27,061 nucleotides of DNA, taken from an uncultured Collinsella sp. (lineage in GTDB: Bacteria > Actinomycetota > Coriobacteriia > Coriobacteriales > Coriobacteriaceae). Of the stretch, positions 6,898 to 23,655 are shown one piece after another (position 1 is the first letter of the stretch; the number at the start of each line of letters is the position of its first letter). The stretch spans positions 1-27,061 of the forward strand of contig CABQHR010000004.1 in assembly GCA_902463875.1 (NCBI GenBank), read 5' to 3'. Below the pieces are notes generated by a model. It ran no database searches and was not told the origin of the DNA. It worked only from the letters and a program-made list of their open reading frames with translations. Position numbers and translations under genes: made by a program.

Positions 6898-8043
6898 ATG
6901 ATTACCGTTGCCGACATTTTGGCCTTACCGGCATTCGAGCGGATTGATTTAGTCGCACCCATCGAAGATGCCGGGGAGCACCGCGTCTACAACGTTGGTA
7001 TCTTAGACTGCCCTCCTTCAATCAACGACTACAGCGCATACATGCCCGGCGAGTTCATTCTCACCAATCTTGGTTTTTGCTATGAAGACCCCGACCTATC
7101 CGACGCGTCGCTCATTGCCATGATTGAAAGGCGTGTCGCAGCCATTGCCGTTAAACGTGTGTACTCGCCATGTTTTACCGATGCAGTCGCCCAAGCAAGT
7201 GTACGCATGGGCGTCCCGGTATATCTCTATTCCGGCGCTTACCATGAGCGCGTCGCATTCGAGTCGCTCAACCTCTTGCAGCGCGATCTCGACGCATCCG
7301 ACAAAAGCGACGCAGTCGACACGCTCCTATCGGGAAAGCCAAAAGCCCAAGTAAGACAAGAGATCAACAAGTTGGCGGGCCTTACCGGATCGACGATGCG
7401 CTGCATTGCCATCTCTGCCGAAAAAGATGATCGCTGCTCACTGTACGCAATTCAAGACACCCTCAACGATTTTCTGGACTCGTTTCGACAGCGACACGAG
7501 GATGTCCAAAACGCATGCGCGTTTCGCTACCACGATGCGCTGCTCGTTTTCGTCTCGTATGCCACCGATAAACAGCACGAGGGCGTCTTCTGTGACCTAG
7601 AAAATGCCATTCGAGGAGTTGGCGTCAACTACTGCGGCATAGGCGACCTGGTGCCCCTCGGCGAGGCAGATATCTCCATTCGTCAGGCAACAATCCTTCT
7701 CAATGAAGCCCATCTGAGCGGAACGCGCAGACTTGAGTGGTCGGATCTGTCCATGGGCGCCTTCTCGTATGCAGCGCAGACCAACCCCATGTTCGAGCGC
7801 ACCGCGCAAGGTTTTCGCCACCGCATCGAAAGCTACGACACACAAAACTCTACCGAACTGGTCCAAACGGCACGTGCCTTTGTGCACTGCAGCGGCGACA
7901 TCATCGACACCGCCGATCGCCTACACCAACACCCCAACACCGTCCGATATCGGTTGCGGCGTATTCGAGCACTCCTCGACATGGGCGATTCACACGACCG
8001 CGAGCTGCTCGTATTCCTTTCCCTCACTTTCCTCAGCAGATAG
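6898..8043 (+). CDS. PucR/CdaR-type transcriptional regulator
   Basis: A 381-residue regulator. The N-terminal part (MITVADILALPAFERIDLVA, to about residue 125) matches the PucR ligand-sensing domain. The middle is a degenerate GGDEF-like CdaR region, and the C terminus (about 325-370, with HPNTVRYRLRRI) is the PucR-type helix-turn-helix. PucR of Bacillus subtilis activates purine/ureide catabolism in response to allantoin; paralogues control many nitrogen-compound pathways. The start has GGAGG seven bases upstream. It reads in the same direction as the carbamoyltransferase cluster 324 bases downstream and is the natural candidate for its specific regulator, but that link is inferred from position. 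Its codon use is less biased than that of the downstream enzymes, as expected of a weakly expressed regulator. Confidence 0.88.
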   Translation: MITVADILALPAFERIDLVAPIEDAGEHRVYNVGILDCPPSINDYSAYMPGEFILTNLGFCYEDPDLSDASLIAMIERRVAAIAVKRVYSPCFTDAVAQASVRMGVPVYLYSGAYHERVAFESLNLLQRDLDASDKSDAVDTLLSGKPKAQVRQEINKLAGLTGSTMRCIAISAEKDDRCSLYAIQDTLNDFLDSFRQRHEDVQNACAFRYHDALLVFVSYATDKQHEGVFCDLENAIRGVGVNYCGIGDLVPLGEADISIRQATILLNEAHLSGTRRLEWSDLSMGAFSYAAQTNPMFERTAQGFRHRIESYDTQNSTELVQTARAFVHCSGDIIDTADRLHQHPNTVRYRLRRIRALLDMGDSHDRELLVFLSLTFLSR

Positions 8044-8367: not shown

Positions 8368-9390
8368 ATGACTATGACTGATTCGGTTTTCCAGGGTCGC
8401 CACCTGCTCTCCACGAGGGACTACACCAGGGACGAGCTCATGTGGCTCATCGGCTTCGCCGAGCACCTCAAGGACCTCAAGAAGCAGAACGTCCCGCAAC
8501 GCTACCTCGAGGGCAAGAACGTCGCGCTGCTCTTCGAGAAGACCTCCACCCGCACCCGCGCAGCCTTCACCACCGCCTGCATCGACCTGGGCGCCCACCC
8601 CGAGTACCTGGGCAAGGGCGACATCCAGCTGGGCAAGAAGGAGACGGTCCTCGACACCGCCAAGGTGCTCGGCTCCATGTTCGACGCCATCGAGTTCCGC
8701 GGCTTCAAGCAGGAGCACGTCGAGCAGCTCGCCGAGCACTCCGGCGTGCCCGTCTGGAACGGCCTCACTGACCGCGAGCACCCCACGCAGATGCTCGCCG
8801 ACTTCATGACCATCAAGGAGCACTTCGGCAGGCTCGAGGGCCTCACGCTCGCCTACTGCGGCCAGGGTCGCAACAACGTCCAGAACTCCCTGATGATCAC
8901 CTCCGCCATCCTCGGTGTGAACTACGTCAACGCCACCCCCAAGGAGCTCGAGCCCGACCCCGAGATCGTCGCCCTCGCGCAGAAGTTCGCCGCCGAGTCC
9001 GGCGCGACCATCCGCGTCACCAACGACCCCGTGGACGCCGTCCGCGGCGCCGACGCCGTCTACACCAACGTCTGGGCGGCCATGGGCGAGGAGTCCCAGT
9101 TCGCCGAGCGCGTCCGCCTGATGTCCCCGTTCCAGGTCAACGCCGAGCTCGTCTCCCACATCGAGAACCCCGACTGGATCTTCCTGCACTGCCTCCCGGC
9201 CTTCCACAACGCCGAGACCGAGTACGCCGCCAAGATCAAGGAGGAGCACGGCATCGAGGCCATGGAGTGCACCGACGACGTGATCTACAGCGAGCACTCC
9301 CGCTGCTTCGAGGAGGCCGAGAACCGCATGCACACCATCAAGGCCATCATGGCCGCGACCCTCGGCAACCTCTACATCCCGCGCGTCTAA
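8368..9390 (+). CDS. Ornithine carbamoyltransferase family protein with altered alpha-amino contacts
   Basis: A 340-residue transcarbamylase. Carbamoyl-phosphate motifs are intact: STRTR (60-64), HPTQ (138-141) and HCLP (274-277), with closing helix [10 protein letters not shown] as in ornithine carbamoyltransferases. By family, it transfers or phosphorolyses carbamoyl groups between carbamoyl phosphate and an amine; in an arginine-deiminase setting it works catabolically (citrulline + Pi to ornithine + carbamoyl phosphate). The usual TDVWVSMG ornithine loop reads TNVWAAMG here (N234, A238), and GDxRNN reads GQGRNN. The changed Asp and Ser are, as I recall the E. coli and human structures, the ligands of ornithine's alpha-amino group, so the true substrate may differ. 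ATG 8368 follows AAAGG; ATG 8374 is an alternative. Codons are extremely biased to NNC/NNG, suggesting high expression. Confidence 0.88.
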
Positions 9391-9411
9391 CCGCGCCACG
9401 GACCGACCGCA

Positions 9412-9441
9412 CGCCGCGGCCCGCCCCTCCGGGCCGCGGCG
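9412..9441 (+). other. Intercistronic hairpin without T-tract
   Basis: A perfect 12-bp, all-GC stem (9412-9423 with 9430-9441) with a 6-nt loop lies between the carbamoyltransferase and the YfcC carrier. No T-run follows, so it is more likely an RNA-stabilising or processing element that sets unequal expression of the two genes than a full terminator. Confidence 0.6.
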
Positions 9442-9462
9442 CCTCACGTAAGGAAATACACC

Positions 9463-10980
9463 ATGGCTGAAGAAATCAAGGAAAAGCCGGCGAGGAAGAA
9501 ATTCCAGATGCCGAACACCTATGTGATCCTGTTCGCCGTCATCGCCTTCATCGCCCTCCTGACCTGGTTCGTCCCCGGCGGAGCCTACGAGCTCTCCGAG
9601 GGCGGCGACGCCATCGCCGGCACCTACCACGTGGTCGAGAGCAACCCCCAGGGCCTCTGGGACATCTTCATGGCCCCCATCACCGGCATGCTCGGCGGTG
9701 GCACGGTCTCCGGCGCCATTTCGATCTCCCTCACCATCATGCTGTTCGGCAGCTTACTCGAGATGATGGATCGCACCTGCGCGCTCAAGACGGCCATCAA
9801 GCGCATCACTATCGCCAATCAGAACAACATGCATGCGCTGATCGCCATCCTCGTTATCCTGATGGCGTTCTTCGGTACGCTCGAAGGCGCCTATGAGGAA
9901 GGCATCGTCTACTTCCTGATGTTCGTGCCCGTCATCCTGGCCCTCGGCCTCGATACGGTCACCGCGATCATGATCGTCGTCCTCGGCACCCAGATCGGCT
10001 GCCTCTCGTCGATCATTAACCCGTTCTCCACGGGCATCGCATCGGGTATCGCCGGCATCTCCCCTGGCGAGGGCATGATTCCCCGCATCGCGATGTTCGT
10101 CATCTTCACCGGCCTCGTCATCCTCCTGATCTGCCGCTACGCCGACAAGATCAAGGCGCATCCCGAGAAGTCCGTCCAGTTCTTCCGGCGCGAGCAGGAC
10201 CTCAAGGAGTTCCCCGCCGCCGACGACGAGGACCTCACCCTCACCGGTCGCCAGAAGGGCGCGCTCGCACTGTTCGTACTTACCTTCGTCTTTATGATCG
10301 TCGGTCTGACCCCCTGGACCTCCCTCAACCCCGAGTGGACGTTCTTCGAGGACTTCGTCGCATGGGTCGCCGCAACCCCGGGCCTGCGCAACGTCCTGGG
10401 CACCGACATCACCGCCTTCGGAAACTGGTATTTCCCCGAGCTCTCGATGATCACCCTGATCATGGTCATCCTCATCGGCGTAGTCATGCACTATGATGCC
10501 GACACTATCATCGATACGATTCTCAAGGGCGCCTCCGGCCTGGTCTCCACCGCCTTCGTCGTGCCGCTGGCACGCGGCATCCAGGTCGTCATGGACAACG
10601 GCCAGATCACCCCGTCCATCCTCAACATGTGCGAGAACGCGCTGGCCTCCCTGCCGCCCTTCGCCTTCGTCGTCGTCGCCCTGGTCTGCTACTTCCTCAT
10701 CGCCTGCCTGATCCCCAGCTCCACCGGCCTCGCCGCCGCCACCATGGGTATCATGGGCACGCTGTCCACCTTCGCCGGCGTCGACGTCTACATCATGGTC
10801 ATCATCTACCTCATGGCGCTCGGCCTGGCCAAGATGATCACCCCGTGCTCCATCGTCGTCATGACGTGCACGGCCGCGGCGCACATGAGCTACGGCGACT
10901 GGGTCAAGAAGATCGCCCCCATCGTCGCCGTCCTGTTCGCCGCCTGCTGCGCCTTCCTCTGCGTCCTCGTGATGCTCTAG
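9463..10980 (+). CDS. YfcC/ArcD2-family carrier (amino-acid antiporter type)
   Basis: A 505-residue membrane protein of the YfcC (DcuC-like, ArcD2) family with about 12 hydrophobic segments. The N terminus carries the family pattern FQMPNTYVILFAVIAFIALLTWFVPGGAYE; the conserved NPFSTGIASG lies after TM5 and IPSSTGLAAATMGIMG near the end. Streptococcal ArcD, the arginine/ornithine exchanger of the deiminase pathway, belongs to this family, so exchange of a guanidino substrate for the amine product is the likely role here. AAGGA precedes ATG 9463. It lies 72 bases after the carbamoyltransferase, separated by a strong hairpin, and is probably co-transcribed with it. Substrate is inferred from neighbours. 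Confidence 0.87.
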   Translation: MAEEIKEKPARKKFQMPNTYVILFAVIAFIALLTWFVPGGAYELSEGGDAIAGTYHVVESNPQGLWDIFMAPITGMLGGGTVSGAISISLTIMLFGSLLEMMDRTCALKTAIKRITIANQNNMHALIAILVILMAFFGTLEGAYEEGIVYFLMFVPVILALGLDTVTAIMIVVLGTQIGCLSSIINPFSTGIASGIAGISPGEGMIPRIAMFVIFTGLVILLICRYADKIKAHPEKSVQFFRREQDLKEFPAADDEDLTLTGRQKGALALFVLTFVFMIVGLTPWTSLNPEWTFFEDFVAWVAATPGLRNVLGTDITAFGNWYFPELSMITLIMVILIGVVMHYDADTIIDTILKGASGLVSTAFVVPLARGIQVVMDNGQITPSILNMCENALASLPPFAFVVVALVCYFLIACLIPSSTGLAAATMGIMGTLSTFAGVDVYIMVIIYLMALGLAKMITPCSIVVMTCTAAAHMSYGDWVKKIAPIVAVLFAACCAFLCVLVML

Positions 10981-11010
10981 GTCTAGGCGCTACTCCCCTG
11001 CGGGAATCCT

Positions 11011-11049
11011 CGCGCGGCGGGCAAGCCCCTCCGTTTTTCCCGCCGCGCG
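11011..11049 (+). other. Second intercistronic hairpin without a downstream T-tract
   Basis: An 11-bp perfect GC stem (11011-11021 with 11039-11049) encloses a 17-nt loop that contains a five-T run. No T-tract follows the stem, so termination should be weak. It separates the carrier gene from the short deiminase gene, repeating the arrangement at 9412-9441. Confidence 0.5.
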
Positions 11050-11092
11050 CATTCCATCTAAGGTATGTAGGTCTTAAAGAAAGGAACCTGCC

Positions 11093-11950
11093 ATGTCTGA
11101 AGAGAAAATCTACGTCTCCAACGCCACCAATCCGCTCAAAAAGGTCATGATGTGCTCGCCGAAGTACTACACCTTCAACGGCATCAACGTCATCACCTCC
11201 GAATGGATGAAGAAGGGCGATACCGAACAGAACGACATCATGGTCAAGGAATGGCAGATGCTCGTTGACGCCTACAAGGATAACGGCATCGAGGTCGTCG
11301 AGGTCGAGGCCAACCCCAAGTACGAGGTCATGACCTTTGCCCGCGACTATGGTTGCATGATCAAGGAAGGCGCCGTCATGGGCCACTTCCGTCATCCGGT
11401 CCGCCAGATCGAGGCCCAGTCCTATGAGGCAAAGCTTAAGGAGATGGGTGTCCCCATCGTCGCCCGCGTTAACGCAGGTTGCATGGAGGGCGGCGACTTC
11501 TGGATGATCGATGAGCATACGCTCGCCTGGGGCATGGTCGATCGTACCGATGAACAGGGAGTCGCCAGCCTCCGCCATCAGCTCGAGAAGTTTGGCTATA
11601 CCGTCGTCGGCGTTCCCTGCCCGCCCGACAACCTGCACCTTGACATGATCTTTAACATCGTCGCTCCCCAAGTTGCGCTCGCTTGCATTGACCAGCTGCC
11701 CTATAACTTCCTGCAGATGCTCAAGCGCCGCGGCTTCGAGCTCATCCCCGTCGCCAGTGAGGATATGTACAAGCACGGCTGCAACGTCCAGTGCATCGGC
11801 AACAACAAGGTCGTTGCCATCGAGAAGAACAAGCACATCAACGACAAGATGCGCGCTCTGGGCATCGAGGTCATCGACGTGCCGCTCGACCAGATCCTGC
11901 ACGCCGGCGGCGGCCCGCACTGCCTGACCCAGCCGATCGAGCGTCCGTAG
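11093..11950 (+). CDS. Short arginine-deiminase-fold hydrolase (guanidino-group modifying)
   Basis: A 285-residue member of the guanidino-group-modifying (pentein) superfamily. Sequence order follows arginine deiminase: TFARDYGCMI (R84, D85; guanidinium Asp), MEGGD (E132), AWGMVDRTDEQG, LHLDMIF (H182, D184) and AGGGPHC (nucleophile C277). All catalytic positions are present. True arginine deiminases have about 400-410 residues because of an inserted five-helix domain; this protein is about 120 shorter and goes from the first strands almost directly to the FARD motif, so that domain is missing. The size resembles dimethylargininases and cyanobacterial arginine dihydrolase domains. Deimination of arginine or a derivative to a ureido product is the simplest role, feeding the carbamoyltransferase. 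AAAGGAA precedes the ATG. Substrate is open. Confidence 0.8.
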   Translation: MSEEKIYVSNATNPLKKVMMCSPKYYTFNGINVITSEWMKKGDTEQNDIMVKEWQMLVDAYKDNGIEVVEVEANPKYEVMTFARDYGCMIKEGAVMGHFRHPVRQIEAQSYEAKLKEMGVPIVARVNAGCMEGGDFWMIDEHTLAWGMVDRTDEQGVASLRHQLEKFGYTVVGVPCPPDNLHLDMIFNIVAPQVALACIDQLPYNFLQMLKRRGFELIPVASEDMYKHGCNVQCIGNNKVVAIEKNKHINDKMRALGIEVIDVPLDQILHAGGGPHCLTQPIERP

Positions 11951-11992
11951 TCCGAACGTTTCGCCTGGACAGTATTTGTCCGAGCCTCTCAT

Positions 11993-12036
11993 GGGGCGCC
12001 GCTCCGCTGGATTCCGGCGCTGCGGCGCCCCTTTTT
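11993..12036 (+). terminator. Terminator within the cluster
   Basis: A perfect 10-bp stem (11993-12002 with 12022-12031, ggggcgccgc / gcggcgcccc) with a 19-nt loop is followed directly by five T. It lies between the short deiminase and the dehydrogenase. Unless it is leaky, the dehydrogenase needs its own promoter, but only about 35 bases remain before its ATG, so partial read-through is likely. Confidence 0.7.
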
Positions 12037-12071
12037 ACCCACAAGCCCCTCAAAGGGGAAAGGAAGCACCC

Positions 12072-13079
12072 ATGAAGATCTTGATCAGCGATTATGCCGA
12101 GAGCATGATGCCCCAGCACGACCTCGAAACCGAGACCCTCAAATCTCATCTGGGTGAGGATATCGATGTTGAGGTTTACGCGTATACCGATGAGGCACGC
12201 GAGGAGTTCTACGAGCATCTTGCCGATGCCGACGCTCTGCTCACTGCCTTCATCAAGGTGGACAAGGAAGCGTTCGAGCACGCTCCCAACCTCAAGGTCA
12301 TCGCCATCAACGCCACCGGCTATGACAACGTAGACATGGACGAGGCAACTGCGCGCGGCGTGGGCGTCTGCCCCGTCGGCGAATACTGCACCTGGGATGT
12401 CTCCGAAAGCGCCATCGCCTATATGTACGCGCTCAACAAGAACTTCAAGTTCTACATCGGTCAGATTGAGCAGGAGCACCGTTGGGATTACGCCGCGGCT
12501 CCCGAGGTGCCTCGTCTTGAAGACCAGACCCTCGGCATCTTTGGTTTTGGCAAAATCGGCAAGTGCACCGCCCGTAAAGCCAAGGGCCTTGTCAAGCGCA
12601 TCATCTCCAACGACCCCTTTATCGACCAGAACCTTTTTGGGCAAAACGGTGTCGAGCAGGCCGAGATCGACGAGGTTTTGGCCGAGGCCGACATCATTAT
12701 CAATCATATGAATCTTAACGAGACGAACTATCATTACTTTGACGCCGAGAAGTTCGCCAAGATGAAGAAAAAGCCCATCGTCATTAACCTGGGCCGTGGC
12801 CTCTGCATGGACGAACCCGCTCTTATCGAAGCTCTCGATTCTGGCCAGATTCGCGCGTTTGGCGCCGATGTTCTGTATGACGAGACGCCCGACCTGGCAA
12901 ACCACCCGCTCGTTGGCCGCGACAACGTGATTATCACGCCGCACTCTGCGTTCTATTCGTCTTCGTCGCTACGCGACCTCATGATCTTCCCGTGCAACAA
13001 CATCGGACACTTCCTCAAGGGCGAAAAGGACCAGCTCTTCAAGTTGGTTAACGACGTTCCTGTCGTAAACGTGTTGTAG
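12072..13079 (+). CDS. D-isomer-specific 2-hydroxyacid dehydrogenase
   Basis: A 335-residue NAD-dependent dehydrogenase. It interconverts a 2-oxo acid and a D-2-hydroxy acid. The Rossmann motif GFGKIG (158-163) and the acidic D181 at the end of the second strand favour NAD over NADP. The catalytic triad is complete: R242 in NLGRG, E271 in DVLYDETPD and H291 in TPHSAF. It resembles the D-lactate/2-hydroxyisocaproate group more than phosphoglycerate dehydrogenases, and has no ACT domain. AAAGGA precedes ATG 12072. Such a gene is not part of standard arginine-deiminase operons; its position suggests the cluster handles an alpha-oxo or alpha-hydroxy acid, or that it recycles NADH with an amino-acid-derived oxo acid. 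Substrate unknown. Confidence 0.9.
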   Translation: MKILISDYAESMMPQHDLETETLKSHLGEDIDVEVYAYTDEAREEFYEHLADADALLTAFIKVDKEAFEHAPNLKVIAINATGYDNVDMDEATARGVGVCPVGEYCTWDVSESAIAYMYALNKNFKFYIGQIEQEHRWDYAAAPEVPRLEDQTLGIFGFGKIGKCTARKAKGLVKRIISNDPFIDQNLFGQNGVEQAEIDEVLAEADIIINHMNLNETNYHYFDAEKFAKMKKKPIVINLGRGLCMDEPALIEALDSGQIRAFGADVLYDETPDLANHPLVGRDNVIITPHSAFYSSSSLRDLMIFPCNNIGHFLKGEKDQLFKLVNDVPVVNVL

Positions 13080-13110: not shown

Positions 13111-13143
13111 AACGGGATGAAGGCCTATTCTTCATCCCGTTTT
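13111..13143 (+). terminator. Terminator after the 2-hydroxyacid dehydrogenase
   Basis: A perfect 12-bp stem (13111-13122 with 13130-13141), 7-nt loop and T-run. It closes the carbamoyltransferase-to-dehydrogenase unit and separates it from the second YfcC gene. Confidence 0.87.
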
Positions 13144-13510: not shown

Positions 13511-14989
13511 ATGTCGGATAAGGCTGCCGCATCTGGCAAAGAACGTAAGCCACGCCAGATGCCCTCATCTTTTACCATTCTCTTTGGCTGCCTGTTGCTC
13601 GTGGCCATCGCCTCGTGGGTCGTCTCGTCATTTAGCCCTGACGTGCAGGCCGCAACGCTTGGCAACTTTATGGCTTCTCCCTTCTTGGGCTTTGAGAGCG
13701 CCATGCAGGTCTGCGTGTTCATTCTTGTGCTTGGCGGTTTCCTGGGCGTAGTCCAAAAAACGGGCGCGCTCGACACCGGCATCGCCGTGCTCGTCCGTAA
13801 ACTAGGCGGTAATGATCTATTGCTCGTTCCTGTTCTCATGCTCGCCTTTGGCATCTGCGGATCCACGTACGGCATGCTCGAGGAATCCGTCCCCTTCTAC
13901 CTGCTCCTGGCATCGGTCACGTTTGCCATGGGTTGGGATCCGCTCGTTGGATGCATGGTAGTTCTCATGGGCTGCGGCCTTGGCGTTTTGGGATCGACGG
14001 TCAACCCGTTTTCGACCGGACTCGCGCTTGATGCTCTCAAGGCAGCCGGCATCCCCTATGACCAGGGACTCATGATCGGCATCGGTCTGGTTATGTTCGC
14101 CATCGCCGAGATTTCGGGCATCATTTTTGTCATGCGGTATGCCAAGCGCGTCCGCACCGACCGCGCCGCCTCATCGCTCACCCCCGAGGAATGGGAGACC
14201 GCCGAGCGTCTCTACGGCGACAAGGACGGCGATTCCGCCGAGGACGCGCACGTCGAGCTTTCCAAAATTCAAAAGCGCGTCCTTGTTCTCTTCGCCCTCA
14301 CGTTTGTCGTCATGATCATCGGCTTTATTCCGTGGCAGACATTCGGAGTTGGCCTATTTGATATCGGCGCCAAGGGCGATGACCTCAGCACCGCATGGAG
14401 CGCACTTTTGACTGGCCTGCCACTTGGTCAGTGGTACTTTACCGAATGCGGCATCTGGTTCTTCACCATGACAATTATTATCGGCAAGGTTGCCGGTATG
14501 CAGGAGAAAGAACTCGTCGACACCATCCTGCACGGCTGCGCCGACCTTGTTTCTGTCGCGCTCGTCGTCGCCGTCGCCCGCGGCGTCTCCGTGCTCATGT
14601 CCATCACCGGACTCGATGTGTGGATCCTCACCAACGCCGCCAACGCGCTCGCCGGCGTATCCGCCACAGTCTTTGCCCCGCTCTCCTATGCGCTCTACTT
14701 TGCCCTGTCTTTCCTCATCCCCTCGAGTACGGGCATGGCAACCGTCTCGATGCCTATCATGGGACCGTTGGCGGCATCCTTAGGCTTTGCCCCCGAAGCC
14801 ATGGTCGCAATCTACCTCGCCACACACGGCGTTGTAGCGATGATCACTCCCACATGCGGGTCCATCATGGCTGGCCTCGAGCTTGCCCAGGTAAGCTACG
14901 CGACCTACATCAAGACGGCCGCCAAATACATGGTCCTGCTTACCGTGATTACCGTTTCGTTTGTCACCGTGCTGATGCTCGTTTTGTAA
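13511..14989 (+). CDS. Second, divergent YfcC-family carrier
   Basis: A 492-residue membrane protein of the same family as the carrier at 9463, with about 12 hydrophobic segments, NPFSTGLALD after TM5 and IPSSTGMATVSMPIMGPL near the C terminus. The first periplasmic segment differs: the usual TWFVPGG is replaced by SWVVSSFSPDVQ and the following loop is shortened, so it is a diverged paralogue, not a recent copy. A central charged loop (residues about 215-260) resembles that of the first carrier. ATG 13511 has AAGGAG six bases upstream; the frame opens at 13475 but without a ribosome-binding site. It has its own regulatory region. A separate substrate, or uptake versus exchange modes, would explain two carriers. 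Substrate unknown. Confidence 0.83.
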   Translation: MSDKAAASGKERKPRQMPSSFTILFGCLLLVAIASWVVSSFSPDVQAATLGNFMASPFLGFESAMQVCVFILVLGGFLGVVQKTGALDTGIAVLVRKLGGNDLLLVPVLMLAFGICGSTYGMLEESVPFYLLLASVTFAMGWDPLVGCMVVLMGCGLGVLGSTVNPFSTGLALDALKAAGIPYDQGLMIGIGLVMFAIAEISGIIFVMRYAKRVRTDRAASSLTPEEWETAERLYGDKDGDSAEDAHVELSKIQKRVLVLFALTFVVMIIGFIPWQTFGVGLFDIGAKGDDLSTAWSALLTGLPLGQWYFTECGIWFFTMTIIIGKVAGMQEKELVDTILHGCADLVSVALVVAVARGVSVLMSITGLDVWILTNAANALAGVSATVFAPLSYALYFALSFLIPSSTGMATVSMPIMGPLAASLGFAPEAMVAIYLATHGVVAMITPTCGSIMAGLELAQVSYATYIKTAAKYMVLLTVITVSFVTVLMLVL

Positions 14990-16770: not shown

Positions 16771-19576
<2,806 letters not shown>

Positions 19577-19585
19577 GGTCGCCTC

Positions 19586-19879
19586 CTAACCCAACAGCGA
19601 CTGGGCGAGTGCCAGCACGTTGGCGGCGTTGCCCATGCCGTAGTCCTGTGCGGGGATGACCGCGGTCGGCTTACCGCTCCCCTGCTTGACGGTGCTGAGC
19701 TGGTAGGACACCTGCGGCCCCAAGAGCAGCACGTCATAATCGGCGCAGGTCTCCTGATACTCGCCGATACCCACCGCATCGATATCGAGCTCGATGTCAT
19801 TTTGCTCCGCGTATTTCTCGAGTTTCTTCATCAGAATGCTTGTAGACAGGCCAGCTGCGCAAACAAGAAGGATCTTCAT
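19586..19879 (-). CDS. PTS lactose/cellobiose-family EIIB
   Basis: A 97-residue cytosolic EIIB with the low-molecular-weight phosphatase-like P-loop: MKILLVCAAGLSTSILM, phosphocysteine C7. It takes the phosphoryl group from EIIA and passes it to the sugar bound in EIIC. Length is typical of the class. The frame continues upstream to 19954 but that part overlaps the EIIA end and lacks family similarity; ATG 19879 has AAGGGA upstream. It lies 46 bases after EIIA and nine before EIIC. Confidence 0.92.
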   Translation of the reverse strand: MKILLVCAAGLSTSILMKKLEKYAEQNDIELDIDAVGIGEYQETCADYDVLLLGPQVSYQLSTVKQGSGKPTAVIPAQDYGMGNAANVLALAQSLLG

Positions 19880-19925
19880 AAGGGATTCCCTTCGCATTGA
19901 TTGGTTGGATAGTCGCCGCACGCCG

Positions 19926-20252
19926 TTAGGCGTTCTTGGCTGCAGTGCGCTCATACAGGCAGATCAGCTCCTGCACGAGCTCCTGGGCAAGCATGGAGCA
20001 CATGAGGTGGTCCTGAGCATGGACCAGCAACACATCCACCGACAGATGCTCGCCCGCCGCCTCGGTCGAAAGCAGCTGCGTTTGGATGTGGTGAGCTTTG
20101 ATTCCCGCATCCTTTGACTGCTTCATGAGTTTGGCGGCAGCGTCAAAATCCCCCGCCTTTGCCTTTTCAAGGGCTTCGAAGGCAAGGCTGCGCGCCTCTC
20201 CCGCTGCAGCGACCAGCTGAAACGAAACCATCTCGGTTCCCTGATCGTCCAT
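19926..20252 (-). CDS. PTS lactose/cellobiose-family EIIA
   Basis: A 108-residue helical EIIA that forms a trimer in this family. The active-site histidine is H78 in VHAQDHLM, with D81 as the metal-binding residue, at the same number as in lactococcal IIA-Lac. It accepts phosphate from HPr and passes it to EIIB. AGGAG precedes ATG 20252. It is the first structural gene after the regulator; the 115-base gap contains a gaatattc palindrome (20289-20296) next to ttcgaa, a possible operator, but I see no antiterminator-type hairpin with a T-tract there. Confidence 0.92.
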   Translation of the reverse strand: MDDQGTEMVSFQLVAAAGEARSLAFEALEKAKAGDFDAAAKLMKQSKDAGIKAHHIQTQLLSTEAAGEHLSVDVLLVHAQDHLMCSMLAQELVQELICLYERTAAKNA

Positions 20253-20367
20253 AACGGTCTCCTCTCCCGTGATGTTTGGTTTGTACTTGAATATTCGAAA
20301 CGCCTATCTCCCACCCGCAATCCTCGAGGTTTATTGCAGGCAGGCAGGGTTGTCGACAAAAGAAGCC

Positions 20368-22263
20368 TTAAGCCGTATGCGCTTGCACAAGCGCCATCAG
20401 CTCATGCCAAGACCGGCGCTCGCGTAAGCGCTCGACCCCCTGGCGATCCATAAAGATCTCAGCGAGCAGCGAGCTCAAGATCCGCGCCTCATCGCCGCCC
20501 GACCGGGCAAACGACACCATAAAGACGATATCGACCTCATGGCCGTATTCATCCCAAAGAATGGGATGTTCGAGCAGGCCCACGGTAACAAAGGCATCGG
20601 CGCTCAAAGGATGCATCCCATGGGGCATAGCCACCCCGTTGCCAAACGAGGTAGCACTCGCGCTCTCGCGCTCGGCGACCTCTTGGGCAAACTGGGGATC
20701 GACACGGCCGCTCTCGACGGCGCGCTCGGAGAGATATCGGAGAACGGCCTGCTTCGACGACGCCTCAACGCGGTTGAAGAACAGGGCACGGCTAAAGAAA
20801 GAGCTCAGGGAGTTCGATTGCGCAGTGTCGTCGCTCAGCACCTTGCGGATAGCGTTGACATCGCTCGTCTCCAAGAAGAAATCGGCCTCGCGGACGGGCA
20901 CGGGCAACTTGACGTTGAGCGGCACCGTTGTGAACACGTAGTCGATATGCGAAAAATCGAACGTTCCCACGCGGGCGACATCGCATGTCTCAATCGAATC
21001 GATATACATGCCAAACTGCTTGCGGTACTGGTGCTCGAGCATACGGGCGCTTCCCGCTCCCGAGGCGCACACGATCAGGATGCGTTTGCGACGCGGCTGG
21101 TCGGCTTGCTGCTCGAGGGCCAGGGCAAATGCCATGGCGATGTAGCCGAGCTCCTCATCAGAGGGCTGGCTGCCAAAATGACGCTCGAGTACCTGCGAGG
21201 TGCCGGCCGCCATCGAATAGGCCAACGGAAACCTCGTCTTGATATCGGACAGCATGGGGTTATCCATATGCATGTGATATTCAAGGCGATAGCCCAGAGG
21301 GCCAATATGCCGAGCAAGGTTCATGCGAAGTTCAAGATCGCTGCTAAAGTCAAACCTAAACTCATCGTTGACCGCACATACCATCTCGGAAGCGATCTCC
21401 CACATCTCGTCCGAGATAACGGCCGAGCCCTTCTCGGGCACGCCCGTGCCTCTGCCAAGCAAATGGATTGCGATAAAGGCAACCTCTTCTCGGGGCATGC
21501 TCACGCCCAGGGCGTCCTTGATGTTTGCGGCAATCTGGAAAGCCGCAGCGTATTCGCGCGTTCCCTCCAGCTTTAAAACGTCCGATTCTGCAGCCGGGAC
21601 ATAGCAGCCCTGCTCGATGCGGCCAAGAGCGATGTAAAGATGCATGATGAGATTGCGGGATGCCAGCGAGCTCACCGTGACGGGCGAGGCAGTCAGGGCA
21701 TCGTCCACACATGCGGCGATGACCCGCAGGCGCTCGGCGAGCTCTGCATCGTCGGTGTCGGGCAACACGGGCCTCACCAGCGAGGCCAGACACAGACGCC
21801 GTTGCGACTCCCCACCCGCAACGCGGATTCCGTAGCGAGGGCGCTTTTCGAGCGTCAAGTCAAATTGGGCGAGTTTCTGCTCTACCAGACGCATGTCATT
21901 GGACAGAGTTCGCGCCGAAACATAGAGCAGATCCGCATACTCCTCAATCGTCACCCACTGGGACCGCATGAGAAGGTCGTTAAGAAGGAAGGACACACGG
22001 CCGTCGCGCGTATCAGGAATGCCCGGATGGGCCAGAGCCGCACCGTCTAGCAAGCGAGCAAGCTCATCTGCATGTGCAACATCGATACGATATTGCCCTT
22101 TGCTGCCAACGATGCGTGCAACCCCCGCAAGCTTGTCGTTTGCGCGATGGATATAGTTTCTCACGGCGCGCTCGCTTACCTCGAGACGCTTGGCAAGCAC
22201 CGCGACAGCGACAGGCTGGCCGTCCTCGATCATATTTACAAGCTGCTTGACGCGAGCATCCAT
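20368..22263 (-). CDS. PRD-containing transcriptional activator with EIIB/EIIA-like domains (LicR/MtlR type)
   Basis: A 631-residue DNA-binding regulator. Domains in order: HTH_11 (about 5-60), a Mga-like second helix-turn-helix (90-150), PRD1 (185-290; H208, H267), PRD2 (300-390; H319), an EIIB-like domain (C399 in VCASGAGSA) and an EIIA-fructose/mannitol-like domain (H548 in AMPHGMHP). HPr and the EII proteins phosphorylate such sites to report sugar supply and PTS flux. The second PRD2 histidine is missing: the expected YxALH reads YIAMA (A378), so PRD2 control should be simplified. AAGGAGGAGG precedes ATG 22263. It sits upstream of and co-directional with the PTS genes, which it most likely activates. 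An inverted repeat gttccgc-N4-gcggaac (22326-22343) upstream may be autoregulatory. Confidence 0.9.
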   Translation of the reverse strand: MDARVKQLVNMIEDGQPVAVAVLAKRLEVSERAVRNYIHRANDKLAGVARIVGSKGQYRIDVAHADELARLLDGAALAHPGIPDTRDGRVSFLLNDLLMRSQWVTIEEYADLLYVSARTLSNDMRLVEQKLAQFDLTLEKRPRYGIRVAGGESQRRLCLASLVRPVLPDTDDAELAERLRVIAACVDDALTASPVTVSSLASRNLIMHLYIALGRIEQGCYVPAAESDVLKLEGTREYAAAFQIAANIKDALGVSMPREEVAFIAIHLLGRGTGVPEKGSAVISDEMWEIASEMVCAVNDEFRFDFSSDLELRMNLARHIGPLGYRLEYHMHMDNPMLSDIKTRFPLAYSMAAGTSQVLERHFGSQPSDEELGYIAMAFALALEQQADQPRRKRILIVCASGAGSARMLEHQYRKQFGMYIDSIETCDVARVGTFDFSHIDYVFTTVPLNVKLPVPVREADFFLETSDVNAIRKVLSDDTAQSNSLSSFFSRALFFNRVEASSKQAVLRYLSERAVESGRVDPQFAQEVAERESASATSFGNGVAMPHGMHPLSADAFVTVGLLEHPILWDEYGHEVDIVFMVSFARSGGDEARILSSLLAEIFMDRQGVERLRERRSWHELMALVQAHTA

Positions 22264-22692: not shown

Positions 22693-23655
22693 CTACTCGT
22701 GGATGCGGGTGCCGGAGAGGCCGGCCATGGTCTCGGCGGCCTTGTCCAGGGCGCCGATGATGCAGGTGCGGCCCTTGCGGGAGCGGGCGAACTTGATGGC
22801 GGCGCGGACCTTGGGCTCCATGGAACCCTTGCCGAACTGACCCTCGTCGGCCAGGCGCTCGGCCTCGTCGGCGGTGATGTCCTCGAGCTCCTCCTGGTTG
22901 GGCTTGCCAAAGTTGATGGCGACATGCTCAACGGCGGTCAGCAGGAACAGGACGTCGGCGTCGCAGTCCTCGGCCAGCAGCTCGCCGCCCAGGTCCTTGT
23001 CGATAACGGCGGGAACGCCCTTGTAGCAACCCTTGTTCTCGTAGTCGCGGACGACGGGGATGCCGCCGCCACCGCAGGCGATGACGATGAACTCGTTGTC
23101 GAGCAGGTTGAGGATGGAGTCGGCCTCGACGATCTTCTTGGGATCGGGGGAGGCGACGACGCGACGCCAGCCGCGGCCGGAATCCTCGACGAAGACCTTG
23201 GAGGGATCCTCGGCCATGAACTCCTTGGCCTGCTCCTCGGTGTAGAAGGGGCCGATCGGCTTGGTCGGGTTCTTGAACGCGGGATCGTCCGGGTCGCACT
23301 CGATCTGGGTGACGACGGTTGCGGCGTGCCAGCGCTTGTAGCGCTTGTGCATCTCGCGGCCGATGCCCTGCTGCAGGTGGTAGCCGATGTAGCCCTGGGA
23401 CATGGCGCCGCACTCGGGCAGCGGCATCTCGGGGGTGCCGATGGCGTCGTGGGCGGCGGCGAAGGCGTTCTGGATCATGCCGACCTGCGGGCCGTTGCCG
23501 TGGGTGATGATGATCTCGTTGCCCTGCTCGATGAGACCGAGGAGAGCGTGAGCGGTGTTGCTCACGGCCTCGATCTGCTCGACGGGGTTGTTGCCGAGGG
23601 CGTTGCCGCCGAGGGCGACGACAATACGATCGGGCTTACCAAGAGGCTTAGACAT
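22693..23655 (-). CDS. arcC: Carbamate kinase
   Basis: A 320-residue amino-acid-kinase-fold enzyme. It makes ATP from carbamoyl phosphate and ADP, the energy-yielding last step of arginine-deiminase-type pathways. The family landmarks are present: VVALGGNALG at the N terminus, THGNGPQVG, GRGWRRVVASPDPK, CGGGGIPV, a DKDLGGELLA segment and GSMEPKVRAA near the end. ATG 23655 has AAGGA eight bases upstream; the frame opens at 23691 without a ribosome-binding site. Codon use is as strongly NNC/NNG-biased as the carbamoyltransferase at 8368, suggesting matched high expression. It is on the opposite strand and 9-15 kb from the other pathway genes, with the PTS operon between, so it is a separate transcription unit. 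It could also serve other carbamoyl-phosphate-yielding routes. Confidence 0.95.
   Translation of the reverse strand: MSKPLGKPDRIVVALGGNALGNNPVEQIEAVSNTAHALLGLIEQGNEIIITHGNGPQVGMIQNAFAAAHDAIGTPEMPLPECGAMSQGYIGYHLQQGIGREMHKRYKRWHAATVVTQIECDPDDPAFKNPTKPIGPFYTEEQAKEFMAEDPSKVFVEDSGRGWRRVVASPDPKKIVEADSILNLLDNEFIVIACGGGGIPVVRDYENKGCYKGVPAVIDKDLGGELLAEDCDADVLFLLTAVEHVAINFGKPNQEELEDITADEAERLADEGQFGKGSMEPKVRAAIKFARSRKGRTCIIGALDKAAETMAGLSGTRIHE

Follow-up and report, generated by a model that had tools for sequence, protein, structure and literature searches.

A Collinsella gene cluster with altered alpha-amino contacts in its deiminase and carbamoyltransferase: a possible energy pathway for argininate or 2-oxoarginine

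What does an arginine-deiminase-like gene cluster degrade if its enzymes appear to have lost the residues that hold the alpha-amino group of their usual substrates? This question is raised by a contig of an uncultured Collinsella sp. (assembly GCA_902463875.1, contig CABQHR010000004.1, positions 1 to 27,061, forward strand), the whole 27,061 nucleotides of which are called the window here. Five genes lie side by side on its plus strand, encoding a PucR-type regulator, a carbamoyltransferase, a YfcC carrier, a deiminase-fold enzyme and a D-2-hydroxyacid dehydrogenase (Table 1). An earlier note, made from the sequence alone, had proposed that the last four degrade argininate or its 2-oxo form, with a carbamate kinase encoded elsewhere in the window forming ATP; every gene that it named was recovered in place by family-model matches. 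Our own reading is an energy pathway, modelled on that of arginine deiminase (ADI), for 2-hydroxy-5-guanidinovalerate (argininate) and/or 2-oxo-5-guanidinovalerate (2-oxoarginine), to which we would assign a probability of roughly 0.6.

The carbamoyltransferase passes the cut-off of the ornithine carbamoyltransferase (OTC) model and contains the OTC motifs STRT, HPTQ and HCLP. In OTC, according to excerpts of PMC4581275, the ornithine-binding residues are N167, K53 in the FxKxSxRT motif and, in the DxxxSMG loop, D231, S235 and M236 (Escherichia coli OTC numbering). The lysine of FxKxSxRT pairs with the alpha-carboxylate and is gone in putrescine carbamoyltransferase (PTC), whose substrate has no carboxylate (PMC3282769, in excerpt). 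In the window enzyme the carboxylate contacts are kept as K58, N170 and M239, while the DxxxSMG ornithine-recognition motif is absent: the loop reads NVWAAMG, against YTDVWVSMGE in OTC, with N234 (codon 9067-9069) at the position of D231 and A238 (codon 9079-9081) at that of S235. The changes from D to N and from S to A that the earlier note had claimed for the alpha-amino contacts are therefore real. Two other identities were considered and rejected. The enzyme is not a PTC: FEKTSTRT is kept, the loop is NVWAAMG and not DVWYGLY, and the TIGR04384 score is 258 bits against a cut-off of 500. Nor is it a knotted transcarbamylase, as it falls far below the cut-offs of those models.

These changes are shared by the relatives of the enzyme. 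A scan of a genome collection with the window deiminase returned 18 loci (L001-L018), and the Asn/Ala pair is present in 17 of 17 enzymes from L001-L017. Eighteen ordinary OTC genes were taken from 17 of these genomes, with one or two chosen out of the three to nine family matches in each, and every one reads Asp/Ser. Among the query and the best 120 of its 7994 homologues, Asn/Ala occurs in 76, Asp/Ser in 43, Arg/Ala in one and gap/Ala in one, and neither an Asp/Ala nor an Asn/Ser pair was found; in the same 121 rows the K53 position is Lys in 119, the N167 position Asn in 120 and the M236 position Met in 121. A second lineage, about 40% identical and mostly 312 aa long, is found in clusters of Lactobacillales and in L056, which is from the window's class. 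It keeps the Lys, Asn and Met, and replaces the Asp by Met in eight enzymes (L018, L049, L051-L053, L055, L056 and L091) and by Asn in L050. Thus all 26 further carbamoyltransferases from such clusters (17 Asn/Ala and nine of the second lineage) are without the Asp and retain the carboxylate contacts. A tree of 64 rows was built with 19 of the 120 listed homologues, after L071 and the short L045 row had been dropped for length; its deepest splits and root are unsure owing to the long L075 branch. The Asn/Ala enzymes form one clade (100/99) inside a Bacillota OTC group and the second type lies far apart, so that at least two separate losses of the Asp would be the simplest reading.

The deiminase belongs to the ADI/DDAH superfamily, having the pentein fold with the catalytic Asp, Glu, His and Cys (D85, E132, H182, D184 and the nucleophile C277). 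The lack of the helical insertion that had been claimed for it is genuine: it has 285 aa, and in an alignment with one ArcA (407 aa) the longest gap spans 79 residues and lies just before residue 73. In human DDAH the alpha-amine is bound by Asp73 (PMC10958460, in excerpt). The window deiminase has V79 (codon 11327-11329) at this alpha-amino-contact position, six residues before the catalytic Asp, while the carboxylate arginines R104 and R151 are kept. Val is found in 27 of 27 deiminase rows of the window's type. In the query and its listed homologues (121 rows) the position is Val in 118, Ile in two and Ala in one, and both arginines are present in all 121. Nine ArcA rows (L076-L084) have Asn there; the corresponding contacts of the Pseudomonas ADI are Asn160, Arg185 and Arg243. 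The NCBIfam models that the window enzyme matches, those for ADI, DDAH and arginine dihydrolase, all score under their cut-offs. ArcA was ruled out by a TIGR01078 score of 75.9 bits against a cut-off of 489, by the missing insertion and by Val in place of Asn; DDAH was ruled out by Val79 at the Asp73 position and by scores below cut-off for all three DDAH models matched.

A comparable change is seen in a further enzyme. Inside one Lactobacillales cluster operon (L049, the same as L092) there is a second hydrolase (L049:3829-4611, minus strand), which similarity clearly marks as a DDAH (E 1e-77 against that of Pseudomonas; 302 of 450 bits, below the NCBIfam cut-off). It carries Ser at the human Asp73 position (PSSVFIED versus PDSVFVED). 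The other DDAHs in the same 295 Lactobacillales genomes (24 matches in 19 genomes) keep the Asp in 19 of 19 fetched loci; there are 25 matches in all, five of them second copies without a locus of their own, two of which lie within fetched loci L106 and L107. Methylated 2-oxo acids, ADGV and SDGV for instance, are possible substrates of the L049 enzyme. The new point is this convergence: the alpha-amino contact has been lost from both carbamoyltransferase lineages, from the deiminase and from one DDAH. Since the main enzymes keep their carboxylate contacts, a substrate without an alpha-ammonium group is the simplest reading, and we conclude that the substrate probably has the carboxylate and lacks the alpha-ammonium. 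Because a 2-hydroxyacid dehydrogenase is part of the operon, argininate or 2-oxoarginine would fit best.

Could the cluster be a spare ADI pathway for ordinary arginine or citrulline, its active sites relaxed and its dehydrogenase unrelated? Its architecture copies that of ADI, its carbamoyltransferase is an OTC by the model, and full-length ArcA was not found in three of the 18 genomes, those of L004 and L017 (both metagenome-assembled genomes, MAGs) and of L013 (a record titled chromosome). However, it is the amino contacts that have gone, in carbamoyltransferases of two lineages as well as in the deiminase and a DDAH, with the carboxylate contacts almost invariant, and ordinary enzymes are at hand: a full-length ArcA exceeds the curated cut-off in 14 of the 18 genomes and an ordinary OTC was fetched in 17. 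This explanation is distinctly unlikely. The L016 genome has a full-length ArcA match of 396 bits. The nearest locus to the window is L001 (deiminase 100% and carbamoyltransferase 98% identical), and its genome also holds ordinary ArcA and OTC; members of the carbamoyltransferase family number three to nine in each of the 18 genomes. The coexistence with ArcA, which the earlier note had suggested examining, was thus observed in relatives of the window genome, and the cluster is no replacement for arginine deiminase.

Conservation of gene order, another check proposed in the earlier note, holds in Coriobacteriia and beyond. The order carbamoyltransferase-YfcC-deiminase-dehydrogenase is found in 18 of 18 scan loci, with a carbamate kinase gene in between in L018. 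Their hosts are Collinsella, Atopobium, Olsenella, several Eggerthellaceae, an Actinomycetaceae, a Lachnospiraceae MAG and Enterococcus phoeniculicola. The pattern is not chance, since it recurs in Actinomycetota and Bacillota. The order varies in further loci: the dehydrogenase precedes the deiminase in L049 and YfcC comes last in L056. The deiminase (E up to 1e-60) is sporadic, occurring in 8 of 197 genomes of the class, in 15 of 138 genomes of one family, including a divergent 52% form in G581, and in 12 of 295 Lactobacillales genomes, four of which have distant forms (39-49% identity). A DNA pattern for the Asn/Ala motif was matched in 14 of the 138 genomes, all of them among the 15 with the deiminase, and the second-lineage carbamoyltransferase (E up to 1e-85) in 8 of the 295, the same eight that have a Val-type deiminase; in G281 the two genes are on separate contigs. 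Among 72,556 plasmid records scanned for the deiminase (E up to 1e-40), only the Enterococcus mundtii plasmid pLDW-8 (L091), typed as conjugative, was found to carry it. The cluster can therefore sit on mobile DNA and may move between strains, which has no bearing on the window.

The D-2-hydroxyacid dehydrogenase is complete, as had been claimed: it matches both PF02826 and PF00389, and its Arg-Glu-His triad (R242, E271 and H291) is invariant in 20 rows. Its structure model has a pLDDT of 93.8, and the nearest structures are glyoxylate reductase and phosphoglycerate dehydrogenase. It represents a distinct conserved family. In the earlier note, a dehydrogenase that failed to accompany the other genes was to count against the pathway; it was found in 25 of 27 loci of the window's type (the 18 of the scan, L049-L051 and L053-L056). 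The main rival explanation turns on this gene. The substrate could be a guanidino acid whose alpha carbon is unsubstituted, such as 5-guanidinovalerate or 4-guanidinobutyrate, with the dehydrogenase acting as an accessory NADH sink on another 2-oxo acid. Kept carboxylate contacts and lost amino contacts in both enzymes fit such an acid equally well, as does the absence of the dehydrogenase from two clusters of the same type and from two more distant ones (L044 and L045). Still, an unrelated dehydrogenase that forms a distinct conserved family and is present in 25 of 27 loci would be hard to explain. Moreover, a hydroxyl or carbonyl group might be bound by the Asn that replaces the Asp, a weak point in that the Met of the second lineage offers no such help. 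On balance, an unsubstituted acid seems unlikely.

With an N-alpha-acyl arginine or with D-arginine as substrate, the usual contact to the ammonium group would serve no purpose, and the Asn might then bind an acyl carbonyl; distant Asn-type loci do have an M20-like gene (in L046) or a gene resembling Asp/Glu racemases (in L047) nearby. Such a substrate is nevertheless improbable. No deacylase or racemase was seen in the partly scanned flanks of L016, L017, L018, L049-L052 and L055, and the dehydrogenase would be left unexplained. Furthermore, the acyl-ornithine carbamoyltransferases described in excerpts of PMC4581275 are of the knotted type, to which the window enzyme does not belong.

Several observations weigh against argininate or 2-oxoarginine as the substrate. 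First, as regards the contacts, the second-lineage carbamoyltransferases retain the Ser of SMG (Met/Ser or Asn/Ser in 9 of 9). In DDAH1, backbone carbonyls also bind the alpha-amine (PMC10958460, in excerpt), so that the loss of one side chain is no strict proof against an amino group. At the contact position, Ser or Thr is also found in four divergent ArcA-like paralogues (in L085 and L086, scoring about 230 to 430 bits) and Ser in a 293-aa relative (L089), and the Ser-type DDAH is one case. Second, the dehydrogenase is not indispensable to the cluster, because two of the 27 loci, L052 and the plasmid locus L091, are without it; in L055 its gene seems split between frames. Distant deiminases at L046 and L047 stand beside an aminotransferase and a 40-41% identical dehydrogenase. 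As these deiminases keep the Asn, the dehydrogenase is also a companion of deiminases whose substrate may be an amino acid, and its place beside the aminotransferase points to a link with the 2-oxo acids that correspond to amino acids. Third, the carbamate kinase gene of the window is unlinked to the cluster. Finally, the substrate argument is drawn from sequence and does not fix the chain length.

Some distant relatives deserve a separate description. The deiminases at L046:4973-11915 (44%) and L047:326-9566 (38%) are accompanied by a HisC-like aminotransferase and amino-acid ABC transporters and form a related module; the M20-like gene belongs to L046, and L047 has an argininosuccinate-lyase-like gene in addition to the racemase-like one. 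At L044:5045-8566 and L045:5906-10538 the deiminases are about 50% identical and have Tyr at the contact position. They are paired with a carbamoyltransferase of the Asn type (YGNTWHSMG) and, in place of YfcC, with an amino-acid permease; there is no dehydrogenase, and several L045 genes seem split across frames. Family models applied to the L048 neighbours and to the downstream genes of L044 and L045 gave no metabolic clue. Two of the four ArcA-like genes of L085 and L086 are without the usual Cys position.

If the substrate is indeed argininate or 2-oxoarginine, the steps may be drawn from gene content and order, catalytic residues and the paired loss and retention of contacts. YfcC would take up the acid in exchange for the end product. 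The dehydrogenase would interconvert the 2-oxo and (R)-2-hydroxy forms; as the equilibrium of 2-hydroxyacid dehydrogenases usually favours reduction, it would probably reduce the 2-oxo acid and so also serve as an electron sink. The short deiminase would hydrolyse the guanidino group to give a ureido acid and ammonia, the altered carbamoyltransferase would convert the ureido acid and phosphate into carbamoyl phosphate and 5-amino-2-hydroxyvalerate, and carbamate kinase would form ATP from the carbamoyl phosphate. From the earlier proposal, the altered contacts, the probable absence of an alpha-ammonium group and the conserved dehydrogenase stand; the exact acid (2-oxo, 2-hydroxy or unsubstituted) and the order of the steps do not follow. 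No pathway for this cluster or for argininate degradation was found among the papers listed, as judged from titles and abstract openings, with subscription journals mostly outside the search.

Microbial transamination or oxidation is one possible source of deaminated arginines. Host products are another possible source, as AGXT2 makes 2-oxo acids from dimethylarginines and homoarginine, according to excerpts of PMC11629207. A wider idea, rather unlikely at present, is that Coriobacteriia and Lactobacillales of the gut ferment arginines that host or microbes have deaminated (2-oxoarginine, argininate and, with the Ser-type DDAH, also AGXT2-made ADGV/SDGV (DMGV)), the whole enzyme set having been re-tuned by removing the alpha-ammonium contact enzyme by enzyme. 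If the argininate or 2-oxoarginine pathway exists, it would add one more branch that yields ATP to the arginine/agmatine deiminase family and give gut microbes a new way to gain energy from deaminated arginines. It would also correct annotations as "ornithine carbamoyltransferase" and "DDAH family", and it offers a sequence rule: a kept Lys before STRT together with a lost Asp of DxxxSMG suggests that the substrate has a carboxylate and no amino group. This compound class, argininate included, is named in listed papers on blood and faecal metabolomics. Argininic acid is on a list of uremic retention solutes (PMC8745165, in excerpt) and DMGV, made by AGXT2, is a marker of liver fat (PMC11629207); a microbial sink would therefore be directly testable.

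Table 1. The cluster and other features of the window
Feature	Position	Strand	Support
PucR-type regulator	6898..8043	+	PF13556 55 bits; PF07905 30.6 bits, under cut-off 33.5
Carbamoyltransferase, OTC-like	8368..9390	+	TIGR00658 399 bits vs cut-off 281
YfcC/DcuC-family carrier	9463..10980	+	PF03606 291 bits
Deiminase, ADI/DDAH superfamily, 285 aa	11093..11950	+	PF19420 and PF02274
D-2-hydroxyacid dehydrogenase, complete	12072..13079	+	PF02826 158 bits; PF00389
Terminator-like hairpin, 13-pair stem	13111..13141	+	consensus scan
Second YfcC-family carrier	13511..14989	+	separate unit, 431 bases downstream
Carbamate kinase	22693..23655	-	TIGR00746 366.6 bits vs cut-off 358.25

As to the layout of the window, neighbours among the last four genes of the cluster are separated by 72 to 121 bases, with a purine-rich stretch 5' of each start. 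The transcription unit probably ends at the hairpin after the dehydrogenase gene; the terminator scan is weak alone (10 sites against a shuffle mean of 6.7), and the argument for this hairpin is its stem length. The PucR-type protein probably regulates the cluster. Upstream of the cluster, L001-L014 have a PucR-like gene; there is one on the minus strand in L018 and one on the E. mundtii plasmid, and none was found at L015-L017. The YfcC carrier is kept in 18 of 18 scan loci and is a probable exchanger of precursor and product. Whether the second YfcC carrier belongs to the cluster is uncertain; it adjoins the cluster in L001 and L002. A carbamate kinase gene directly follows the dehydrogenase gene in L004, L005, L011 and L016, and a partial copy does so at a contig edge in L008. 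Elsewhere in the window, positions 16771-22263 on the minus strand encode a beta-glucosidase-like protein, PTS-type components and a BglG-type regulator, as read by eye from the translations of open reading frames.

How does the cluster compare with known systems? It shares with the ArcABC pathway the logic of deiminase, carbamoyltransferase and carbamate kinase with a carrier, as well as the catalytic residues. It differs from ArcABC in the deiminase, which is without the helical insertion and the amino-contact Asn, in the carbamoyltransferase, which is without the Asp of DxxxSMG, and in the extra dehydrogenase. The arginine transaminase route (AruH/AruI) passes through 2-oxoarginine, one of the compounds proposed here, but the cluster has no decarboxylase or transaminase and would use deimination instead. 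The acyclic imino acid reductase Bsp5 has a partner oxidase, and no oxidase was seen in the window cluster. Bsp5 (6p2i, with D-Arg; rank 27 among the structure matches) shares the fold and triad of the D-2-hydroxyacid dehydrogenases at 26% identity and, by its structure title, shows that an arginine-derived compound is within the reach of this superfamily. Guanidine-modifying enzymes of the DDAH/ArgZ type are 17-24% identical to the window deiminase, which has Val at the alpha-amino contact. Finally, the agmatine deiminase/PTC pathway provides a precedent for an OTC-like enzyme re-tuned to a changed alpha position. In this respect PTC is the mirror image of the cluster enzyme: PTC retains the Asp and has given up the Lys that binds the carboxylate (excerpts of PMC3282769; FQQVSTRTR and YTDVWYGLY in L075), whereas the cluster enzyme keeps the Lys and loses the Asp.

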